Positions 606-60,089 of a DNA stretch of 60,089 nucleotides are shown piece after piece; the first letter of the stretch is position 1, and every line of letters starts with the position of its first letter. The translations under genes and the position numbers were made by a program. Source of the stretch: a virus; the IMG/VR virus record IMGVR_UViG_3300047496_000093, positions 1 to 60,089 of that record. One strand, given 5' to 3'. The notes under the pieces were generated by a model. The model searched no databases. It was not told the origin of the DNA and was given only the letters and a program-made list of their open reading frames with translations.

Positions 606-829
606 ATCGGCCTCTTTCCTGTTATCAGTTTTTCCTTGTTCCATATATTAGCCTGATCCTCCGCTTCTTTTCTTGTGTCGAATGTACCTACCGTTTCGTT
701 TGTGGATATGTAGACAACTACGTTATTTTTACTATGCCCCTGCAATCCGGTTACGATATATTGACCCGCTTTACTTGAAAACAATTTACCTCTGCACACA
801 GCTAATTGCCCTTTAATTCTCGATTGCAT
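602..829 (-). CDS. Small early protein (about 75 aa), possible paralogue of the next upstream gene
   Basis: The frame is open to 910, but the ATG at 829 is the more likely start because the longer form would largely overlap the upstream gene; the ribosome site is weak, so the start is uncertain. The C-terminal half (a short beta segment, then VGTF, then a helix rich in E/A/N) resembles the layout VATF...A...N of the gene at 802-1005. This suggests a duplicated small fold of unknown function. Confidence 0.5.
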   Translation of the reverse strand: MQSRIKGQLAVCRGKLFSSKAGQYIVTGLQGHSKNNVVVYISTNETVGTFDTRKEAEDQANIWNKEKLITGKRPI

Positions 830-1005
830 CTTTGAGCATAGGAATGCGCTCCGCCGTTGTTTGGAAATGTCGCCACTACTTCTTTCGTATTTGTGTTGAG
901 TACATCCCATTTTGTCTTTGTCCTCGCATTGGGCCGAATTATATATACTGGAATGTTTGCCTTTGGCGCTTTCATGCTTTGGTAACTTTCTATACTAAGG
1001 ATCAT
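802..1005 (-). CDS. Small early protein of unknown function (67 aa)
   Basis: The ATG at 1005 is chosen because AGGAAG sits five bases upstream; the in-frame GTG at 1011 would leave no room for that site. It is the first gene of a leftward cluster driven by the promoter at 1040-1067. It contains KWDVLNTNTKEVVATF followed by a short helix, a layout shared with the downstream gene. No known domain recognised. Confidence 0.55.
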   Translation of the reverse strand: MILSIESYQSMKAPKANIPVYIIRPNARTKTKWDVLNTNTKEVVATFPNNGGAHSYAQRCNRELKGN

Positions 1006-1039
1006 GAGCACTTCCTATAGTTACTGTTTACTTACAGGG

Positions 1040-1067
1040 ATAATACAGTAATAAAAGATTGTGTCAA
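1040..1067 (-). promoter_or_regulatory. Leftward sigma-70-type promoter with overlapping ACTGT motifs
   Basis: On the minus strand a perfect TTGACA (1067-1062) is followed after 16 bases by TATTAT (1045-1040). The -10 region and the leader (1021-1052) carry ACTGT/ACAG motifs (TTACTG at 1021, TTACAGG at 1032, TACAGTAAT at 1044) that recur at other leftward start regions, so an operator is likely. The -35 overlaps the stop codon of the ribbon-helix-helix gene. Confidence 0.55.
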
Positions 1068-1207
1068 CCTTTTATTTTCAGATATTTTCTGAAAGCTTCT
1101 TTGATTATATATTTCAAAGTTCTACCTTCATCTTTAGCGTGTTCTTTAAGGGCTTGAAACAATTCCTCATCATCAATCTCAAAATTAATTCGGATACGTT
1201 TTTGCAT
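1064..1207 (-). CDS. Ribbon-helix-helix (Arc/CopG-like) small DNA-binding protein, 47 aa
   Basis: This short gene starts at 1207 behind AAAGAAG and ends with TGA at 1064-1066. The product begins MQKRIRINFEID, an alternating polar/hydrophobic strand typical of the DNA-contacting beta ribbon, followed by a helix (DEELFQALKEHAKDEG), a turn and a second basic helix ending KYLKIKG. Length and layout match minimal Arc/CopG/MetJ-type repressors, which act as dimers. It lies between two leftward promoters that both carry ACTGT/ACAGT motifs, so autoregulation or control of the leftward genes is a reasonable inference. Binding specificity cannot be read from the sequence. Confidence 0.7.
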   Translation of the reverse strand: MQKRIRINFEIDDEELFQALKEHAKDEGRTLKYIIKEAFRKYLKIKG

Positions 1208-1234
1208 TGGGTCTTCTTTCTGTAAAGTTATCAC

Positions 1235-1269
1235 ACTGTCAATTTACAGTATATTTACTGAGTTGTCAA
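1235..1269 (-). promoter_or_regulatory. Leftward promoter and 16-bp inverted-repeat operator candidate
   Basis: Minus-strand TTGACA (1269-1264) is followed 17 bases later by TAAATT (1246-1241). An inverted repeat ACTGT-6-ACAGT (1235-1250) covers the -10, and the palindrome GTCAATTGAC (1265-1274) covers the -35. The -35 lies within the last codons of the helicase gene. It would drive the ribbon-helix-helix gene at 1064-1207. Confidence 0.45.
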
Positions 1270-2902: not shown

Positions 2903-3162
2903 TTCAACCCCTCATCAATTTTCTCTTTTGTATCCCAGACATAAACCTCAAACCCCGCGGCGCGAAGCCGTTCATGTTCCCGCGCCTGATGGTCCTCAGC
3001 TTCTTTTCCTGGGCGTTTCAACTCAACCAGTATATGTGAACCTGGGAGGAGCGCCAACCTGTCAGGAGCCCCTCTTCGCCCGATCCACTTAAGCTTTCTT
3101 ACGCTTCCGCCCAGTGCTTTTACTTTCTTCTTGAAATACGACTCGATTCCCCTCTCCAGCAT
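2899..3162 (-). CDS. VRR-NUC domain nuclease (87 aa)
   Basis: A single-domain PD-(D/E)XK nuclease of the VRR-NUC family. Visible signatures are GRRGAPDRLALL (the catalytic Asp region), then ILVELKRPG (the E-x-K motif), then a helix and EVYVWDT. Phage stand-alone VRR-NUC proteins are proposed to act on branched DNA such as Holliday junctions. The ATG at 3162 is chosen because GTGAGGTGGGAT precedes it. The first 74 bases overlap the 3' end of the polymerase gene in another frame. Confidence 0.85.
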   Translation of the reverse strand: MLERGIESYFKKKVKALGGSVRKLKWIGRRGAPDRLALLPGSHILVELKRPGKEAEDHQAREHERLRAAGFEVYVWDTKEKIDEGLK

Positions 3163-4936
3163 ATCCCACCTCACTTAGAATTTTATACGCTTCGTCAATG
3201 TACCAATCCAAATTAACATCACAGGGAAATTCATCAGACAATGTCATCAGTGGCTCGGCACCTTCGGATCTCGGGACCGTATGGTTGTTTATTTTATATT
3301 TTATATCACCGAAAGCCAAACGCCCGTAGTACCATCGAATCACCTTACCTAAGTATTCGCCATCCTTCACCGCGCCGCCAGTGACTTTGCGTACGGTAAC
3401 GAATTTTCGAATATCTTTACATCCGTTGATCGTATCTTCGATCGGTATCTGCTTATCCAGGCACTTCACCACTGCCTCGGTGCAAATTTCGTTGGTAGGG
3501 TTCTTCTGTAGTCCAGGGGGAGTATATGCTCCCTTGAGTTTGTACCCGGACGGTGACTTGAGGGCTATGTAGTTGTTGACGTCGCGGCTGTGGAGGGCGC
3601 GGTACTTTGTCTCTTCTATCTCAAAGCCGCTGGTTTCTTCCCATCTCCCTATCTCGACATCAACATCCACAGTTCTGATGTCGGGATGTAAAACAGCAAT
3701 GCCGTCTGTATTTGCGCTGACAACGCTACCGCCAGTGTGTTTTTCAACGGATTCGATAAGCATAAGGAGCGCCAACTGACCCGTCATTGTCGTCTGGATA
3801 AGAAGATTCGGAGAATATAAAATCGAATACTTGCTGCCAAACTTTCCAAAACCACCGTTGATCGTGATCTTCAGACTGTCTGCCGTAACTTTATCGCCGG
3901 ATGCTTTTGCCGCCAGACGCTTATCCACAATATCTTTATAAACTTTTATAAATGTCTTGCCCATTGCGAGAGGGTATAAACCTTGCTGTAAAATAATCGC
4001 AGGGTAGTAAGACGCGACATCAAAATCCCGTAAGATCAGGGTGTCGTTTGCCGTATGGTATTTCGCCTCCTCGGTACTGTGCAATCCGCCAATGCCCAAA
4101 CGATAGGTCGATTGCCCAATGCAAATATCCAAGTCAGCAATTTCCTTAGGGAGCATCACTTTCCCCGAGTCTACAACGTAAAAATCCGCCTCAAGTACCG
4201 TCTTGAGCACATTCTGCAACAACGGCGTTTCGAACTTAATAAAATCAGGTTTATGATACCGAAACGAATGGCACTTCACCACCGGCTTTTCAATCTTATT
4301 CTTTGTGATACGCTCGACCTCGTGCTTCAGCACATGCTCTGCAATCTGCGCATCGCTCTTGCTCCGTAGGTCAATGCCATAGGTCTTGCTCATCTCTTCG
4401 CGCAACGCAATCTGCGGCAATAGGAACTTATATAGCTCCTCCGTTACCCTAAGATCGTTTCCGCAATATAGCCGCAGTTCTTCGCGTTGATCGGGCGAAA
4501 TCGAATCACTAGGGTCAATCGGCAAATCAGCCATTGTCTTGGTGTGCAGACGACCGCCATATGCTTTAAGACTCGCTTTGCCTGGAGCAATTTCGATGAT
4601 GTCTATATGATCAATCTTATCAGATATTTTAAAATTAAATTTCTGTTCAGCTTGCCAATACTTATATCCACCCGCGATAATATAGTCGCAAACCGCTTTG
4701 CACTTTGCGTTGTCTTGGTGCGTAAGCGCACAGAACAGCACTGGCATATCGAAATTAATGCCGTTAAACGTTATGACAGTGCACTTACTTAGAATCTTTC
4801 GGACAGTATCAACGTCTAGCTTCTGCCCTTCAAACATCTCGAAGTTTCGGACGTTGCCCGTAGTCACATTGCGAAAGGCTACGAGGAGGTAATCCCGGTA
4901 GACTTCAATATCGCATATAACTACGGGCTTTTTCAT
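3089..4936 (-). CDS. Family B DNA polymerase with 3'-5' exonuclease (615 aa)
   Basis: The replicative polymerase of the phage. Exonuclease motifs are D9-I-E11 (Exo I), FNGINFD at 57-63 (Exo II) and Y157/D161 (Exo III). Polymerase motif A is DFDVASYYP (304-312), motif B is KITINGGFGKFG (356-367) and motif C is NTDG (409-412), a variant of the usual DTD. At 615 aa it is compact, and no protein-priming terminal-protein gene was noticed nearby. The TAA of the SSB-like gene directly abuts this ATG. The last 24 residues are basic and overlap the nuclease gene. Confidence 0.92.
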   Translation of the reverse strand: MKKPVVICDIEVYRDYLLVAFRNVTTGNVRNFEMFEGQKLDVDTVRKILSKCTVITFNGINFDMPVLFCALTHQDNAKCKAVCDYIIAGGYKYWQAEQKFNFKISDKIDHIDIIEIAPGKASLKAYGGRLHTKTMADLPIDPSDSISPDQREELRLYCGNDLRVTEELYKFLLPQIALREEMSKTYGIDLRSKSDAQIAEHVLKHEVERITKNKIEKPVVKCHSFRYHKPDFIKFETPLLQNVLKTVLEADFYVVDSGKVMLPKEIADLDICIGQSTYRLGIGGLHSTEEAKYHTANDTLILRDFDVASYYPAIILQQGLYPLAMGKTFIKVYKDIVDKRLAAKASGDKVTADSLKITINGGFGKFGSKYSILYSPNLLIQTTMTGQLALLMLIESVEKHTGGSVVSANTDGIAVLHPDIRTVDVDVEIGRWEETSGFEIEETKYRALHSRDVNNYIALKSPSGYKLKGAYTPPGLQKNPTNEICTEAVVKCLDKQIPIEDTINGCKDIRKFVTVRKVTGGAVKDGEYLGKVIRWYYGRLAFGDIKYKINNHTVPRSEGAEPLMTLSDEFPCDVNLDWYIDEAYKILSEVGYAGEGNRVVFQEESKSTGRKRKKA

Positions 4937-6866: not shown

Positions 6867-7292
6867 CTACGCTTTGCCTTGGGCAATAGTCACTTGCGTC
6901 AGGTACGCGTCATAATCAGAGGGCTTTAGCTCCGTTGCTGCCTTAATGTCAAATTTTGCCAGAATATCGAGAACCGTCTGCTTACCCTTTGCCTTGATTA
7001 AATCCAGCGTAGCTTTCTTAACCACTTCATACGGTGTGGTGGTCGCTTCTGACAATGCAACTGCAACTGCAGCAGGTGTAGGATCAGCCAAGACGACTTG
7101 CTCAGTTATCGGAACAACAACTTCACTCTTGAGTTTATTAGGCCCACGCGCTTTGCGTTCTTTCTTCAGTTCGGTTTCTTCTGACAGGGATGTTCCCCCT
7201 TGCATTGTTACTAACGATGGTTTGTTTAGATTACTTACCGATGCAAATATTTCTTCGAGTGAATCTGATTCAATTGTAAGTTTGTATTTCAT
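6867..7292 (-). CDS. First gene of the replication operon, unknown function (141 aa)
   Basis: It starts at 7292 behind GAGAGGAT, a leader also used at 12540. The N-terminus is a beta-rich segment, followed by a low-complexity Lys/Pro/Val linker (about 45-85) and a helical C-terminal domain (YEVVKKATLDLIKAKGKQ...LAKFDIKAATELKPSDY). That C-terminal pattern resembles a helical module seen in other phage recombination-region proteins, but no named family is claimed. Confidence 0.65.
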   Translation of the reverse strand: MKYKLTIESDSLEEIFASVSNLNKPSLVTMQGGTSLSEETELKKERKARGPNKLKSEVVVPITEQVVLADPTPAAVAVALSEATTTPYEVVKKATLDLIKAKGKQTVLDILAKFDIKAATELKPSDYDAYLTQVTIAQGKA

Positions 7293-7310
7293 AATAATCA
7301 TCCTCTCCAT

Positions 7311-7489
7311 TTAACAGTATGTAAATTAAAGTCGTAGTCCTACGCCCACATCAATTACTATAGGAGGTTTTTGCTTGTGTCAATAAAATTATTTTAAGCA
7401 TATGCTAAAATATCACTTGCAATTAATCTCATAATAGTGCTTTTCTGGGTGTTCGGCTCACCCTACCTTATAAAAAAGCAATAGGTTTT
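7311..7489. promoter_or_regulatory. Divergent control region between the leftward replication operon and the rightward regulator
   Basis: On the minus strand TTGACA (about 7380) and TATAGT lie 15 bases apart, a slightly short but plausible promoter for the replication operon. A palindrome centred on AGCATATGCT (extended TTTAAGCATATGCTAAAA, one mismatched pair) lies near 7395-7412, and CGTAG-GA-CTACG near 7331-7342 is a second. An ACAGTA motif occurs at about 7314. These are candidate operators for the Cro-like protein encoded to the right. Nothing codes here. Confidence 0.5.
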
Positions 7490-7744
7490 ATGCGACAATT
7501 CAAGCAATGGATGAAACAGAGCACCAGAGCGCAGAAGCAGCGCCTTGCGAAGCTCGCCGGGGGGAATTACATGTATTTATATCAAATGCTCTCTGGCGAT
7601 CGTGACGCCGGGAGTAAATTCGCCGCTGCGTTAGAGAAAGCCTCAAGGAAAATGGACGTTGCATTACCCGTACTCACACGCGGTGACGTGTGCAAGGTAT
7701 GTGCTGATTGTCCTTATTATAAAAAATGTAAAAAAGATTCTTAA
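7490..7744 (+). CDS. Cro-like helix-turn-helix regulator with C-terminal Cys cluster (84 aa)
   Basis: Residues 14-55 (AQKQRLAKLAGGNYMYLYQMLSG...) form a Cro/CII-like helix-turn-helix, with the recognition helix near NYMYLYQMLSG. The C-terminus carries CKVCADCPYYKKC, four cysteines suited to metal binding, which is unusual for a simple Cro. It starts the rightward transcript, is followed within 42 bp by the primase gene, and faces the divergent region containing palindromes, so it probably regulates both early operons. Confidence 0.7.
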   Translation: MRQFKQWMKQSTRAQKQRLAKLAGGNYMYLYQMLSGDRDAGSKFAAALEKASRKMDVALPVLTRGDVCKVCADCPYYKKCKKDS

Positions 7745-7785: not shown

Positions 7786-10080
7786 ATGACCGAAAACAAG
7801 GCATGGGGCGCTTCCCCTGACGATTGGACTCACTTCGACATTATACTTGGCCTTGGTCAGGATTTACTGCCGGTGGTGTCTAACCCCAGCGCCGTGGTGT
7901 CGGCCAGGTCGACGATAAAAGCTCTAGGGAAAGTCCCTTCGATCTACAACAAGAGTGGCGACGCGGTCGGTATTCTTGACTGGACTTCCAAAGAAACGAA
8001 GCCCTTTGAAATCGATAAATGGTCTAAAGTGAGAGACTACGGGATTTGCATCCAGACCCGGCGGGTGCGCGCCTTGGACATTGATGTGACCGACGCGGCT
8101 GTATCCGCGGCTATTGAATTGGCAATTCTCGAAACAATCCCCTCGGCCGTTGTTCGTAAGCGCAAGAATAGTTCTAAGTTCTTGGTTCCTTTCGTTGTTT
8201 CCGACTACGGTGATAGTGATGGTGGTAGTTCTGATTACACAAAGCGTGTATTGCCGATAGGTGAGGAGCGTATCGAATTCCTAGGCACCGGGCAGCAATT
8301 CATCGCACTGGGCACACATCCGTCGGGTACACGTTACATCTGGCGCCGGTGTGTGGGTATTAATTGTGTCGCCCCCTTGTACGAAGACATTGCACTGCCA
8401 GAAACCTTCCCGGTGATGACGGCCGAGGGGTTCGAAGCCCTTTGGCAAAGCATTGTGGAAAGATTCAGCACCGGTGATGTTGTGGAGTTAGGTAGCCGTA
8501 ATAGTTTGGCGGCCATTGCGGTGCCAGCCAACGACGACACGGCCGATAGTCTTGAAGTTCTAGGTATCAACATTGGTAAACGAGGCCGCGAAGGGCAAGT
8601 ATATATAGAGTGCCCATGGAAGTCAGAACACACCGACGCAGGGGCGCAGGACAGTCTGACCGGTACGGCGTACTTCCCGGCGGGGGGCCGGGGCTACGAG
8701 CAAGGGCATTTTAAGTGTCTCCACGCCCATTGCGCCGGTAGGGCGGATGAGGAATTCCGAGTAGCACTCGGCCTTGAGGAAGAAGGTGGAGGGTTTGACG
8801 TTGTACCCTACGTTGAGGGTGAGGAAGGCTTAGAAACGCCGCTCTCCCGGAACGAGGAAACGGGACTTTGCCTTGCAACAGTGAGCAACCTAAAATCTGT
8901 ACTTAGCTTACCCAAAGCATGCGGCCAATATATCAAATATGATACTTTCCGTGACGAGATCGTTTGGCAACGCATTGGGCAAGAAGCCGCCGGGTGGATA
9001 CCTCTTAAAGACACAGATTATATGCGCATACGCATCGAGCTCGAACGTACAGGATTTATGCCTATTAACAGTGCTTCACTTAAAGAAGTGATAAGGCTTG
9101 TTGCAGGCGTTAATAGGTTTGACTCCGCTATCGAGTGGCTCAATGCATTGCCGTCGTGGGATGGTATTTCCAGAGTTAATGGGTTTCTTCGAGATTATAT
9201 GGGGGCCGAAGACAACGCGTACCACGCTTCCGTTTCTGAATATATGTGGGTGGCATTGGCCGGTAGAGTCCTTGAACCTGGCTGTAAGGCTGACGCCGCG
9301 CCTATCTTTGTTGGAGACCAGTATTGCGGTAAGAGCTTCTCCGTCGCGTCCATAGCACCAAAGCTAACTATGCATGCCGAAGTAAGACTCGATGATGATG
9401 AAGACAACCTTGCCCGTAAGATGCGCGGCAAACTTGTCGCCGAGTTTGCAGAAATGCGCGGGTTTCAAGGTCGTGATTCAGAAAGTACGAAGGCGTTTAT
9501 CAGTCGTCAATACGAAGAGTGGACACCTAAGTATATGGAGTTCACTACTATATATCCTCGCCGCTTGTTGTTCATAGGAACGCATAATAAAATAGAAATA
9601 TTCGGTGATGAAACAGGAAATCGTAGGTGGTTCCCGGTTCTTACTCCAAAAGGCGACCCGTTGGCGATAGTAAGAGATCGCGATCAATTATGGGCGGAAG
9701 GTAAGGTCATGTTCGAGAAAGCCTCCCGGTCGGTGCAGGGGTTTTATGAAAAGGCAAATGACTTGGCACACGCTATACGGGAAAATTTTATGTTGGTTGA
9801 CGTATGGGAAGACCATATAGTGGAGTGGTTAAACAAAAAGGAAGGTGACGAAAGTTGCCCCGCTATGTGTGAATTTTTACAAGTTCCGACAATTATGTGC
9901 GATGCTCTCGGTTTGGAGAAAAGAAATCTCAAAACTTTTGATATGATGCGCGTTGCTAAAATAATGACTAAATTAGGGTATAAAAAATTAGTTAGACGTA
10001 TTGATGGGGTCAATAGTAAGGTTTGGGTGAAGGGTGCTACCACCTGCTTACCACCTGCTACCACCCCACGCTGCCGCTGA
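7786..10080 (+). CDS. Primase-helicase: prim-pol-like N-terminus, zinc motif, VirE/D5-type ATPase (764 aa)
   Basis: The N-terminal third has ALDIDV in a primase-polymerase-like context, where Asp-x-Asp binds metal. A zinc-type CPWKSEH...FKCLHAHC motif follows near residues 280-320. The C-terminal half is a virulence-associated-E (VirE) SF3-like ATPase with Walker A GDQYCGKS, an acidic Walker B region (EFAEM) and GTHNK, then NRRWFPV. It would prime and unwind DNA at the phage origin. It is preceded by AGGGGGG. The last codons are built from the CTGCTACCACC repeat that continues downstream. Confidence 0.88.
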   Translation: MTENKAWGASPDDWTHFDIILGLGQDLLPVVSNPSAVVSARSTIKALGKVPSIYNKSGDAVGILDWTSKETKPFEIDKWSKVRDYGICIQTRRVRALDIDVTDAAVSAAIELAILETIPSAVVRKRKNSSKFLVPFVVSDYGDSDGGSSDYTKRVLPIGEERIEFLGTGQQFIALGTHPSGTRYIWRRCVGINCVAPLYEDIALPETFPVMTAEGFEALWQSIVERFSTGDVVELGSRNSLAAIAVPANDDTADSLEVLGINIGKRGREGQVYIECPWKSEHTDAGAQDSLTGTAYFPAGGRGYEQGHFKCLHAHCAGRADEEFRVALGLEEEGGGFDVVPYVEGEEGLETPLSRNEETGLCLATVSNLKSVLSLPKACGQYIKYDTFRDEIVWQRIGQEAAGWIPLKDTDYMRIRIELERTGFMPINSASLKEVIRLVAGVNRFDSAIEWLNALPSWDGISRVNGFLRDYMGAEDNAYHASVSEYMWVALAGRVLEPGCKADAAPIFVGDQYCGKSFSVASIAPKLTMHAEVRLDDDEDNLARKMRGKLVAEFAEMRGFQGRDSESTKAFISRQYEEWTPKYMEFTTIYPRRLLFIGTHNKIEIFGDETGNRRWFPVLTPKGDPLAIVRDRDQLWAEGKVMFEKASRSVQGFYEKANDLAHAIRENFMLVDVWEDHIVEWLNKKEGDESCPAMCEFLQVPTIMCDALGLEKRNLKTFDMMRVAKIMTKLGYKKLVRRIDGVNSKVWVKGATTCLPPATTPRCR

Positions 10081-11547: not shown

Positions 11548-12078
11548 TTAGACCCAAGCTGGTTTTTTGTCTGCATCAGGCAGCGCCATAAGAAAGTCGA
11601 TAGCCTGTTGTGGCACTTCACGGCGCAACCATGCCGAACCATAGCTATATGGCTTCCCATTATGCAAATAGGAGGCGTCAGGCTCTAGACCAACAACGGT
11701 TAGGCATTTTAAAGCATCATCATATTTTTTAACGCCTACTTGCGCTAGCCATTGCTCTTGTTTGGGGCTTCCAGCGGTGCAATCGTTTAAATGCCATTCT
11801 CTCCATATACGGCGAAACTCCGTGACCTTGGCGCGATTCCAGCCAGTGGCATAGCTTGTTAAATTCCAGTCGTGCATATCAATCTGACCGCAGCCGCCTA
11901 AGCAATTGCCAGATGCAAGCGGCCCCTCAACGCCTGATATTGAAATCTTCCCATCAGTGAAAGATATTTTGCAGAAAACGCTATAGCCTCTCCCGCCACT
12001 TGTTTTACTGGTTCCAATCCGTACAACTTTTGAAAAGTCTTTGTTTATGGGCGCTTCCATTTTCGCTGTGTTGGTCAT
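11548..12078 (-). CDS. Conserved phage protein of unknown function (176 aa)
   Basis: The second of two nearby ATGs (12078) is chosen because AAGGAA lies 8 bases upstream. The sequence (VRIGTSKTSGGRGYSVFCKI, SISGVEGPLASGNCLGGCGQI, RIWREWHLNDCTAG, ending FLMALPDADKKPAWV) matches a family I recognise as common in phage and prophage small-gene clusters with no assigned function. Cys and His residues are conserved-looking but no catalytic site is evident. Confidence 0.65.
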   Translation of the reverse strand: MTNTAKMEAPINKDFSKVVRIGTSKTSGGRGYSVFCKISFTDGKISISGVEGPLASGNCLGGCGQIDMHDWNLTSYATGWNRAKVTEFRRIWREWHLNDCTAGSPKQEQWLAQVGVKKYDDALKCLTVVGLEPDASYLHNGKPYSYGSAWLRREVPQQAIDFLMALPDADKKPAWV

Positions 12079-12127
12079 TATCATATTCCTTTATAGTTAT
12101 GGGTTTAAATTGATTGTAATGGGGTTT

Positions 12128-12560: not shown

Positions 12561-12634
12561 TTTACTGCATCTTTACAGTAATTAGACAGTAACATTACCT
12601 ACTATCCATTGTCAATAGACAATCTACAGTAAAA
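12561..12634 (-). promoter_or_regulatory. Leftward control region with four ACTGT/ACAGT motifs
   Basis: Motifs TTTACTG (12561), TTTACAGTAAT (12572), GACAGTAAC (12585) and CTACAGTAAA (12624) cluster upstream of the leftward small genes. A minus-strand TTGACA (12615-12610) lies inside ATTGTC-TATT-GACAAT on that strand; the matching -10 is poor. The motif matches those at 1021-1052 and 1235-1250. Confidence 0.45.
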
Positions 12635-12702: not shown

Positions 12703-12734
12703 TTGCATTGCCAAAATCCAATTGCATTGCCAAA
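12703..12734. repeat. Direct repeat TTGCATTGCCAAA (two copies)
   Basis: Two exact 13-bp copies at 12703-12715 and 12722-12734, 19 bp apart, lie just upstream of the small terminase gene. The same word, in variants and both orientations, recurs between the terminase genes and after TerL, so it may be a terminase recognition or regulatory element. Confidence 0.6.
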
Positions 12735-13232: not shown

Positions 13233-13717
13233 TCGCTGGCAATATAGCAACGTGTAAATAATTGCAAGTTAGCTACTCATTATAATAGGGATCATTGCCT
13301 GTTGCGCGTTGCGTTGTCATATATAATGAGCTGCAATTAGCGTTGCGCCGTTTTGGCGCTCAATATAATGACAAGGCAATGTGCGCGGAGCTATATAACC
13401 AATGGTTATTTGGCCCTTTGCATGTTGCATTGTCGGCGATAGATATATTGACCCCGCCCCCGTCTTTTTGCATTGGCATGTGCACCTTGCGTTGACGGGA
13501 CTCCTACCTAGTAACATACAGGGTAGCTATACAAAATATGAGGTATTGAAATTTTTATAAAAAAAATATATATTTTTCATATGACAACAAATGATGTCGG
13601 CGCAGATTTTGTGACAATGCAACATACAAATAGTATTGGGCAAAGTGCTCACAGCAATGCAAATAGTATTTGGCAAAGTGCCCATGGCAACGCAAATAGT
13701 ATTGGGCAAATAATCCT
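13233..13717. other. Non-coding repeat-rich gap between terminase genes; candidate packaging site
   Basis: No convincing gene is found in 485 bp. CTCATTATA (13276-13284) and TATAATGAG (13322-13330) are perfect inverted arms. GCGCC-GTTTT-GGCGC (13345-13359) is a second hairpin, and ATTGCC...TTGTCAT (13294-13321) is mirrored by ATGACAAGGCAAT (13368-13380), giving a large imperfect palindrome. Three 33-bp direct repeats follow. TTGC/GCAA words are dense throughout. This matches the layout expected of a cos or pac locus beside terminase, but cleavage is not visible. Confidence 0.5.
13620..13716. repeat. Three 33-bp direct repeats before the large terminase gene
   Basis: The core GCAAATAGTATTGGGCAAAG starts at 13626 (ACAA variant), 13659 (one T for G) and 13692, exactly 33 bp apart. 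The last copy ends immediately before the TerL ATG, so the array also forms the TerL leader. Confidence 0.85.
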
Positions 13718-15382
13718 ATGAACGCGCCAATATTCCCAGACAACAGAAATGCAAAGCAAAAAGCCTTCGACGCGGTAAAGCACGTCTCGCGATCAACAGC
13801 AAAGCCCGATGAAGCTCTCAATACTCTAATTGCTACACTTAGATATGATCCTGCAACTTTTTGCGATATCGCTTATAAATGGGGTGAAGGTGAACTTAAA
13901 GACAGCAACGGTCTTCGGGTATGGCAAAAAGATATTGCCAACACAATTGGCAATTTACTTAAAGATCCTGCGACACGGCATAAACCTATCAAAATCGCCG
14001 TAGCATCAGGTCATGGTATTGGCAAAAGTTCGCTCGTATCAATGCTCATCGACTGGGCACTTTCTACTTGCGTTGATACGAAAATCGTCGTCACAGCGAA
14101 TACGGAAAATCAGCTTCGCACAAAAACCTGGCCAGAGGTGATTAAGTGGGTACGCGGCAGCGTTAACGCCCATTGGTTTGACACGACCGCTACGGCGGTT
14201 ATGAGTAACGAAGTTGGTAGAGAATCCACATGGCGAGCCGATGCTATACCATGGAGTGAGAACAATACTGAAGCATTCGCCGGATTGCATAATCAAGGTA
14301 AACGCCTGGTGCTCATATTCGATGAGTCGTCCGCAGTATCGGACAAAGTATGGGAAGTGGCTGAAGGAGCTATGACTGACGCCAACACAGAAATAATTTG
14401 GCTCGCCTTCGGGAATCCGACGCAAAACACCGGACGTTTTCGTGAATGCTTTGGTAAATTTAAGCACCGATGGATCACAAGACAAATCGACAGCCGCACG
14501 GTCGAAGGAACAAACGCCGAGCAGCTACAATCATGGGTCGACGATTACGGCGAAGATTCGGATTTTGTTCGTGTGCGCGTCCGCGGTGAATTCCCCAGAA
14601 GCGGCAACTTACAATTCATCCCATCCGATCTCGTTGAATCTGCGCGTGATCGTGAACCGAGCGCAACATTGATGGATGCGCGAATCATGGCAGTGGATGT
14701 GGCAAGGTTCGGAGATGATGAGAGTATCATCTGTTGTCGACAAGGGCGAGATGCCTCTTCGATCGCATGGCAACATTTGCGAGGTATCGATACCATGCAA
14801 CTTGCCTCGAGAATTGTCGACGCGGCGCAATCATTTAAGCCCGACGCGATCTTCGTCGACGGCGGCGGCGTCGGCGGCGGTGTGATCGACCGGCTACGGA
14901 TGCTTCGCCAACCGGTAATCGAGGTGCAGTTCGGCGCAAGCGCCGATCGGAGTTTAGTTACTGAAAGCGGCAATGTGAGGTACGCGAATAAGAGGGCGGA
15001 GATGTGGGGATATATGCGAGACTGGCTTAAAGGGGGTAGCATTCCCGATGACCCGGACTTAGCAGAACAACTGACCGGCACACAATACGGATATATCTTC
15101 CGTGAGGGCAAGGATGTCATATTGCTGGAGAAGAAGGCGGATATGAAGAAGCGCGGTCTCAGCTCGCCAGATAGGGCAGACGCGTTAGCGTTAACGTTTG
15201 CTTACCCTGTGAATCCAAGCAATCATCGTGAACGTATGGAGTCACGGCAAGGCAACACGCACACATATCATTATGACCCTCTGGCACTTTCCCACATCAA
15301 CCGGGATATTACCCCGAACCAGGGTTCGACACATCAGTCGAATTACGATAGCTTATCTATTGACTATTTGAACAGAAACTGA
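13718..15382 (+). CDS. terL: Terminase large subunit, ATPase-nuclease (554 aa)
   Basis: The packaging motor. The ATPase domain has Walker A GHGIGKS (98-104), Walker B LVLIFDES (197-204) and a coupling-like WLAFGNPTQNTGR. The RNase H-type nuclease has IMAVDVARFGDD (Asp near 327), IFVDGGG (Asp near 381) and a terminal RADALALTF (Asp near 483). Length and order are normal for TerL. The C-terminal tail (about 505-554) is Asn/His/Ser-rich. It pairs with the small subunit upstream across the repeat region. Confidence 0.93.
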   Translation: MNAPIFPDNRNAKQKAFDAVKHVSRSTAKPDEALNTLIATLRYDPATFCDIAYKWGEGELKDSNGLRVWQKDIANTIGNLLKDPATRHKPIKIAVASGHGIGKSSLVSMLIDWALSTCVDTKIVVTANTENQLRTKTWPEVIKWVRGSVNAHWFDTTATAVMSNEVGRESTWRADAIPWSENNTEAFAGLHNQGKRLVLIFDESSAVSDKVWEVAEGAMTDANTEIIWLAFGNPTQNTGRFRECFGKFKHRWITRQIDSRTVEGTNAEQLQSWVDDYGEDSDFVRVRVRGEFPRSGNLQFIPSDLVESARDREPSATLMDARIMAVDVARFGDDESIICCRQGRDASSIAWQHLRGIDTMQLASRIVDAAQSFKPDAIFVDGGGVGGGVIDRLRMLRQPVIEVQFGASADRSLVTESGNVRYANKRAEMWGYMRDWLKGGSIPDDPDLAEQLTGTQYGYIFREGKDVILLEKKADMKKRGLSSPDRADALALTFAYPVNPSNHRERMESRQGNTHTYHYDPLALSHINRDITPNQGSTHQSNYDSLSIDYLNRN

Positions 15383-23095: not shown

Positions 23096-23620
23096 ATGGC
23101 TTATGTTGAAACCTCGTCTGGCGCACAGTTCTCTGCTGCACAGGCAATCAGCGCTACCGCCAATGCCACGAACCTGTTCGACGTAACAGGCGCGGGTACT
23201 GGCAACGCTCCGGCGATGACCGGAACGGCTGGTCTTAATACTAATATGTTTGTTGATATCGGTGCTGGCGACGGCGAAGCGGTTCCGCAGGTTGTTATCA
23301 CGAATGCTCTTACCACTGCTGGTACGGGCACCGGTACGATTACCTTTAGCCTGCAGTCTGCTCCTGATAACGGCAGCTACTCGCCGGGTACGTACACGAC
23401 TATTTTCACCTCGCCAGCGTTTGTTGGTACGGCGATCACGGCTCCGTTTCAGTACATCTTTAACGTTCCGCAGACTCCTCCGGGCATCGCGCTTCCGCGC
23501 TTTTACCGTTTGGCGTACACGGTATCTGGCACCGCGGCTGCGACGTTCAACGCGAACTTGCTGCTCAATGCTCCGACGGTGCGTGATGTCACCAAGTACG
23601 GCAACAACCTAAACTTTTAA
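23096..23620 (+). CDS. Capsid decoration/cement-like protein (174 aa)
   Basis: Directly downstream of the capsid gene. The sequence is Thr/Ala/Gly/Asn-rich and beta-strand-dominated, ending FNANLLLNAPTVRDVTKYGN. Position and composition match the cement protein of BPP-1-like phages (Bbp16), a jellyroll that stabilises the capsid. Homology is inferred from context. Confidence 0.68.
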   Translation: MAYVETSSGAQFSAAQAISATANATNLFDVTGAGTGNAPAMTGTAGLNTNMFVDIGAGDGEAVPQVVITNALTTAGTGTGTITFSLQSAPDNGSYSPGTYTTIFTSPAFVGTAITAPFQYIFNVPQTPPGIALPRFYRLAYTVSGTAAATFNANLLLNAPTVRDVTKYGNNLNF

Positions 23621-54971: not shown

Positions 54972-55160
54972 TTAGTCGTTTTCAACGTAGTCAATATGTA
55001 AGTCCAAAATCTCAAGGACTCGCTCACTAAAGTCTCTACGTCCATTTACCATATCAGAAACATATTGCTTGGTAAGGCCGTTTATCTTAGCAAACGCTTG
55101 CTGAGTTTTCACTTCCTTTATCCTCTTCCGAAGGCGTTTTCTTACTGCGTTTTTGTTCAT
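54972..55160 (-). CDS. Cro/C1-type helix-turn-helix repressor (62 aa)
   Basis: A single HTH domain: QQAFAKINGLTKQYVSDMVNGRR, where LTKQYVSDMVN is the recognition helix. No dimerisation or cleavage domain, so it is of the short type. It is divergent from the integrase, and the 14-bp operator candidate lies between them, making it the likely switch of lysogeny or integration. Confidence 0.75.
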   Translation of the reverse strand: MNKNAVRKRLRKRIKEVKTQQAFAKINGLTKQYVSDMVNGRRDFSERVLEILDLHIDYVEND

Positions 55161-55220
55161 ATAACCTGTGTACGCTAATCAGCGGAACAATGCAAGCATT
55201 ATTTTATAGGGGCATCCTGA

Positions 55221-55255
55221 GTTATATTGAAACTGGCAATTTTGCCAATTCATAT
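55221..55255. promoter_or_regulatory. Divergent regulator/integrase promoter with palindromic operator
   Basis: The palindrome TGGCAA-TT-TTGCCA (55234-55247) overlaps a minus-strand promoter TTGGCA (55248-55243), 16 bp, TATAAC (55226-55221) for the regulator. In the plus direction TTGAAA (55227-55232), 17 bp, TCATAT (55250-55255) may serve the integrase, although its transcript would leave little leader. A protein bound to the palindrome would cover both. Confidence 0.5.
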
Positions 55256-59340: not shown

Positions 59341-60089
59341 CTAATTTCCCCTCACTGCCGAAGAAAACTTTTCAGACCCATATTGACCCTTAATCAATTT
59401 GGCAATTTCATTTGCTGTATAAGTATCATCAAGACTTTTTCCAGTCGTTTCTACAAAGTTTCTTACACCAGCGCCACACGCACCCGTAACGGCACGATAA
59501 ATGCCGATCCATTCTGTACCTGTTGTTTTTTTAGGTAATTCCCCATCGAATTTTGCGACAACTTTATAAATTAAGTCTTCACGAGCCTTAGCGATAGTAT
59601 CGCCATGTGCGGAATTGCCTTTATCGTCTTTGACAACGAACAATATTTTTCCTGATTCGGTTTTTACTTTTTTGACACCATTTCTGGTTGAAATAACGTA
59701 AGTGAAAACATCATCTGTAAAATCTACTTCTACCCACTTACCGTTATTAACAATATACCAACAATCAGGCTTAATTTTTTTACCGTCAACGAGATCGGCT
59801 TTTCCTCCTACGGGGATATATTTGTTGTCTTTTATGACATATTCTGAAGACATCAATAGATTGCCAAGATCGCCCTTTACCGCTGCGCGGTATCCTACCG
59901 CAGCGGTTCCGCTGTTCTCGCCCGAGGATGCTGCCTTGCTGTAATTGCCCGAGGATGCTGCCGTGCTGTTCTCGCCCGAGGATGCTGCCTTGCTGTTATA
60001 TCCCGAGGATGCTGCCGTGCTGTAATTGCCCGAGGATGCTGCCGTGCTGTTCTCGCCCGAGGATGCTGCCTTGCTGTTCTCGCCCGAGG
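59341..60089 (-). CDS. Tandem-repeat phage protein (DUF7666-like), repeats and C-terminal domains
   Basis: Continuation of the gene that starts at 348. From 60089 the frame reads further nine-residue repeats, then GTAAVGYRAAVKGDLGNLL (a closing repeat cap), a region VDGKKIKPDCWYIVNNGKWV typical of DUF7666-associated phage proteins, and a C-terminal helical domain with GDTIAKAREDLIYKVVAKFD and YRAVTGACGAGVRNFVET. The ATG at 59856 is internal, because the repeats upstream are in frame. The C-terminal domain is recurrent in phages; function unknown. Confidence 0.8.
   Translation of the reverse strand, partial: SGENSKAASSGENSTAASSGNYSTAASSGYNSKAASSGENSTAASSGNYSKAASSGENSGTAAVGYRAAVKGDLGNLLMSSEYVIKDNKYIPVGGKADLVDGKKIKPDCWYIVNNGKWVEVDFTDDVFTYVISTRNGVKKVKTESGKILFVVKDDKGNSAHGDTIAKAREDLIYKVVAKFDGELPKKTTGTEWIGIYRAVTGACGAGVRNFVETTGKSLDDTYTANEIAKLIKGQYGSEKFSSAVRGN
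59923..60089. repeat. 27-bp tandem repeat array (right end), 6 full units plus a partial unit
   Basis: Units start at 59923, 59950, 59977, 60004, 60031 and 60058, with the sequence ending CGAGG at 60089. Same unit and same two variable places as the array at 16-231, including one copy of the rarer TATATC version in each. To join position 60089 to position 1 in phase, the 7 bases ATGCTGC (plus any multiple of 27) are needed. Confidence 0.95.

Follow-up and report, generated by a model that had tools for sequence, protein, structure and literature searches.

Phased ACWGT arrays at three leftward promoters of a phage genome and a predicted ribbon-helix-helix repressor of 47 residues

Three arrays of ACWGT half-sites set at 11-bp steps lie across the -10 regions of leftward promoters, two of which the promoter scan calls and one of which was read by eye, in IMG/VR virus record IMGVR_UViG_3300047496_000093, whose full length of 60,089 bases is the window analyzed here. 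A ribbon-helix-helix (RHH) protein of 47 residues is encoded between two of the arrays. We consider it probable, from the layout of sites and genes, that this protein is a self-regulated repressor of the Arc/CopG/F55 kind, acting through arrays O1–O3 on its own gene and on two early operons. The elements are as follows.

1023–1049: array O1, three half-sites at 11-bp steps (ACTGT 1023, ACAGG 1034, ACAGT 1045)
1040–1067, minus strand: promoter P1, TTGACA-16-TATTAT, promoter scan 11/12, reading into the small genes from 1011 to 345
1064–1207, minus strand: gene of the 47-residue RHH protein, ATG at 1207
1224–1261: array O2, four half-sites at 11-bp steps (AAAGT 1224, ACTGT 1235, ACAGT 1246, ACTGA 1257)
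1241–1269, minus strand: promoter P2 of the RHH gene, TTGACA-17-TAAATT, promoter scan 10/12
12564–12590: array O3, three half-sites at 11-bp steps (ACTGC 12564, ACAGT 12575, ACAGT 12586)
12586–12615, minus strand: presumed promoter P3, TTGACA at 12615–12610, 18-bp spacer and extended -10 TGTTACTGT, read by eye

Phase of the ACWGT words

The signal in this genome is the 11-bp phase of ACWGT, not the number of words. The sequence-only reading of this DNA had offered a count of the motif against shuffled sequence as its check, and that count shows no enrichment: ACTGT occurs 60 times on either strand of the 60-kb genome, compared with 79.8 ± 8.3 expected from shuffles, and the paired form ACTGT-N6-ACAGT with at most two mismatches 15 times, compared with 17.8 expected. 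The exact pair lies at 1235–1250, as that reading stated, and is the sole exact copy in the window.

Phased triples, defined as three ACWGT words whose starts are 11 bp apart and which together carry no more than one mismatch, are found four times (starts 1023, 1224, 1235, and 12564) and at three places only, 1023–1049, 1224–1261, and 12564–12590; 60 simulated genomes contain none. Among periods of 5 to 30 bp, four triples are seen at 11 bp, one at 16 bp, and none otherwise. Since the word and the step had been picked afterwards, we also scanned 32 self-complementary degenerate words (XYWY'X' or XYSY'X') at 20 periods (steps 6–25), that is, 640 combinations. ACWGT at 11 bp ranks first among them when places and hits are taken together. 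In 6,846 Markov-1 genomes, ACWGT at 11 bp yields at least one triple in 42 and never occupies more than one place, while the best of the 640 combinations reaches at least three places in 95, and at least three places together with a best of at least four hits in 9. A set of 206 helicase- or DUF2800-related loci (2.8 Mb) holds one phased triple, compared with four in 60 kb here; a half-site matrix trained on these sites gives six triples scoring at least 18 here and none in the 206 loci, a comparison that is partly circular.

The promoters proposed at 1040 and 1241 are seen in the scan as TTGACA-bearing sites ending at these positions, both leftward (11/12 and 10/12), and the RHH gene is indeed flanked by two arrays. 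O2 runs over the RHH gene's own promoter, covering the -10 and the start of P2. P3, which would read into the leftward genes from 12540 to 10323, has TACTGT with an extended TG as its by-eye -10; unlike P1 and P2, it is not called by the promoter scan. Around it, a cluster of four words had been proposed at 12561–12634; the cluster is present, although with three exact words (12575, 12586, and 12626) plus ACTGC 12564. Weaker words, ATTGT 12608 and ACAAT 12619, are in the same phase as O3. O1 and O3 are similar on the coding strand (TTACTGT..., [C/A]CTGT, [A/G]CAGT). The 6-bp spacers of the two differ, an indication that the words and the phase are under constraint and are not parts of a copied repeat.

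Two further features were noted. The ACTGT at 7314–7318 (minus strand), also part of the sequence-only reading, is single as described, and was rejected as an array because it has no 11-bp phased partner. A 12-nt inverted repeat (92%) at 1050–1076 spans the RHH stop codon and has the P1 -35 box at its loop; it is either a weak terminator or chance.

The 47-residue protein

The open reading frame at 1064–1207 encodes an RHH protein: it matches Pfam RHH_1 with 24.5–26 bits (cut-off 20.5), the one RHH_1 match in the whole genome, and PHROG Arc-like repressors with E 9e-4 to 0.016; weak matches to antitoxin RHH models are seen as well. The ATG at 1207 is preferred over the GTG at 1234 because the latter, seven bases past the P2 -10, is the predicted transcription start.

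The AlphaFold2 model (single sequence, mean pLDDT 84.5) has helices at residues 14–27 and 31–45, with no N-terminal strand in this single-chain monomer. Residues 4–9 (R I R I N F) alternate between polar (R4, R6, N8) and hydrophobic (I5, I7, F9), a pattern that may represent the DNA-reading ribbon. The loop G28-R29-T30 joins the two helices and matches the G-X-S/T/N of the RHH fold, a motif described for RHH proteins (PMC2812701). Foldseek places CopG at the top (E 0.058, probability 0.98), with PutA, ParD, ParG, NikR, and Arc within the first 50 matches; VIA-align gives PutA (Z 6.7, rmsd 2.1, 44 aligned), followed by CopG, Arc, NikR, and omega with Z of 5 to 6. These modest scores are expected for a 47-residue chain modelled as a monomer, and the sequence model agrees with them. 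A PDB sequence search at E up to 5 yields seven matched sequences, Arc not being among them.

The sequence-only reading had taken the protein for a minimal repressor of a size that usual length cut-offs miss. Such a size is not unusual, given that CopG, the best Foldseek match and a stand-alone RHH repressor, has 45 residues, and Arc of phage P22, also a small phage RHH repressor, has 53 (PMC4803016).

Proposed circuit and alternative readings

The reading of the arrays as operators of an RHH repressor is well supported by their anatomy, the protein–DNA binding itself being predicted, since the half-sites are self-complementary and keep an 11-bp phase, the arrays overlap promoters, the gene lies between two arrays, and its product is the sole RHH_1 match. 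Because ACWGT equals its own reverse complement, it is most naturally read by one symmetric RHH dimer at each helical turn, and a symmetric word repeated once per turn in both direct and inverted order suggests a row of such dimers. They would be stacked on one DNA face in 11-bp steps, each bound to one ACWGT; RelB dimers are described on one DNA face at adjoining 12-bp half-sites (PMC2812701).

The targets would be three leftward sigma-70-type promoters, contacted at the -10 and start region: O2/P2 for the protein's own gene, O1/P1 for the next early operon, and O3/P3 for the early operon beside the late genes. Arrays in this position imply repression, with self-limitation at P2; the protein would thus cap its own level and shut off early genes while accumulating. 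It may also come from read-through of the replication operon, which runs leftward from 7310 to 1266, upstream of the RHH gene, in which case the shut-off would be timed with replication. Small genes lie behind P1 and P3.

802–1011, minus strand: first ORF behind P1, 69 residues, without family match
602–910, then 345–644: next ORFs behind P1
12400–12540, minus strand: first ORF behind P3, 46 residues, without family match
11548–12084, minus strand: 178-residue ORF behind P3, with relatives (36%) in the terminal-repeat gene region of Caulobacter giant phages

The 178-residue ORF is the only one of the genes behind P1 and P3 with a convincing family match, and is a candidate early gene; its Caulobacter giant phage relatives would fit an early role.

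Arc half-sites lie about one turn (11 bp) apart, as in the arrays here, and the Arc operator differs in sequence from ACWGT; CopG, of plasmid pMV158/pLS1, likewise has a different operator. The present protein has PHROG Arc-like matches; unlike Arc, it would have three operators with three or four half-sites each. The available text of the AmrZ paper (PMC3325190) contains no 11-bp statement for Arc. CopG serves in plasmid copy control, unlike the phage protein here. Omega of inc18 plasmids binds one dimer per heptad repeat (PMC4803016), comparable to the one dimer per repeat along a row of repeats proposed here; however, omega has 7-bp heptads and an extra N-terminal tail, compared with the 11-bp steps here. 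A parallel in layout is F55 of the archaeal virus SSV1, a virus-coded RHH protein of 55 residues with 11-nt tandem sites in three early promoters as well as its own, which represses early genes and acts in lysogeny together with host RadA (PMC9608457, PMC5569661). The F55 site is ATAGATAGAGT, in contrast to the self-complementary ACWGT; moreover, F55 acts at archaeal promoters and its binding is demonstrated, whereas binding to the present sites is predicted.

A phage-wide regulon, as put forward earlier, overstates the case: coverage of three promoters stands, whereas the word at 7314 is a lone one and the region 7311–7489 carries a different palindrome. A broader role is conceivable but unlikely, namely that early genes are under the master control of the RHH protein rather than of a CI-type repressor, which would make it a counterpart of F55 in bacteria, and that the arrays mark the two operons of small orphan genes as host-takeover or anti-defence operons. 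If true, the operator could be used for finding such genes. Shared early operators as markers of anti-defence genes are an idea found in PMC11065993; Aca8, described there, is a predicted winged HTH protein, not RHH, and parallels the present system in logic only.

Among the alternatives, another phage regulator might read ACTGT-N6-ACAGT as an inverted repeat, which the pair is, and two HTH genes exist in the window.

7490–7744: HTH-like ORF with a PHROG repressor match (E 1e-4)
54972–55160: 62-residue HTH_3 protein (22.3–23.4 bits, cut-off 23), adjoining the presumed integrase at 55227

The HTH_3 protein is a candidate immunity regulator, and the phage is presumably temperate. Nevertheless, we judge control of the arrays by another phage regulator, such as the products of these genes, unlikely. 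An HTH dimer would require strictly inverted pairs, whereas both three-site arrays hold direct repeats in phase (ACAGT-ACAGT and ACAGG-ACAGT), and each word is symmetric in itself. No such array lies near either HTH gene; 55155–55230 is without repeats, and the region by 7490 has the different palindrome, TTTAAGCATATGCTAAAA at 7393–7410. This palindrome, in the divergent region between the leftward 6867–7310 and the HTH-like gene, is likely the operator of a different regulator.

It is highly improbable that the arrays are replication-origin iterons bound by an initiator. Phage replication genes are near by, and phased 11-bp words elsewhere are often plain tandem repeats, some of them inside ORFs of ~250–350 residues; here, however, the arrays are three, short and apart from one another, their spacers have diverged, their words are mixed in orientation, each array covers a promoter -10 region, and O3 with P3 is 11.3 kb away from O1 and O2.

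Nor is there much to recommend the RHH protein as the antitoxin of a toxin–antitoxin pair with the arrays as its autoregulatory operator, which we hold to be very improbable. RHH folds are common in antitoxins, in line with the weak model matches, but the chain stops two residues past helix 2, without a C-terminal toxin-binding extension, and the third array is 11 kb away; the ORFs downstream of the RHH gene match no toxin family, though hardly anything is matched by them at all.

That the sites serve a host factor, such as the SOS repressor LexA, is extremely improbable: CTGT...ACAG resembles a LexA box, but LexA boxes were rejected on spacing, as they have the form CTGT-N8-ACAG, which occurs once in the window, at 23174 and outside the arrays, and the arrays have N6.

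With the RHH protein as the probable repressor, this looks like an ordinary Arc-style circuit in a phage without a close relative in the databases searched, and the mechanism itself would be no surprise to specialists. What it offers is a small, clean, testable predicted repressor–operator pair whose half-site is unusually symmetric. Should binding be confirmed, the array would pick out the early operons of a genome that is otherwise opaque and supply a compact repressor part.

Other viruses and genome context

No record searched carries the RHH protein and the array together. In phages, tblastn of the RHH protein gives no match at E up to 1; phmmer against 21,196 small ORFs of 208 sequences returns the window's own copy only; and a plasmid search gives two weak matches (E 0.3 and 1). 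A pattern scan of viral contigs confirmed no relative with the pair, and neither did a DNA polymerase scan confirm any relative. RHH_1 is seen in one of 50 helicase relatives (taken from 80 loci), weakly and below the cut-off, while the four loci found via the P3 operon have neither RHH_1 nor the array.

The exact four-word array is present at 70 other viral loci, yet AGWCT, a scrambled word set at the same step as a control, is as common (72), and many of the arrays are plain 11-bp tandem repeats; for these reasons the notion that such arrays are widespread in viruses was dropped. The phased array is significant for this genome and is not a general viral signature. RHH_1 is found in none of the 35 array-bearing viral records whose array sits in no ORF of at least 100 residues, and in three of 35 other array-bearing records, weakly and always below the cut-off, so that the array alone does not imply an RHH protein. 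At ten other viral loci, 11-bp phased words, mostly ACAGT on the ORF coding strand, lie inside ORFs of ~250–350 residues, and may be origin iterons within initiator genes. In the open-licence literature, no paper was found that joins ribbon-helix-helix, ACTGT, and operator; the motif may still be published elsewhere.

The gene content of the record is that of a tailed phage, with the following landmarks.

1266–2648: SNF2-type helicase, 49–50% to Acinetobacter phage 4316 and Bordetella BPP-1
3089–4936: phage DNA polymerase
7786–10080: VapE-type primase-helicase
13718: terminase-like ORF, ~50% to Pseudomonas phage AF and epsilon15-type phages
55227: candidate tyrosine integrase ORF, by-eye reading

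A tandem repeat of ~27–28 bp (...cccgaggatgctgcc...) is present at both window ends (1–230 and 59907–60089); as the two ends share this short repeat, it is probable that the genome is circular and that its assembly was opened within the repeat. Beside the terminase gene, 13527–13821 contains short tandem repeats whose minus strand encodes PNTIC-like units. Shortly before the late genes, which run rightward from 12762, TTGCATTGCCAAA occurs twice at 12703–12734, in perfect copies 19 bp apart, and this pair is a possible late-promoter control site.
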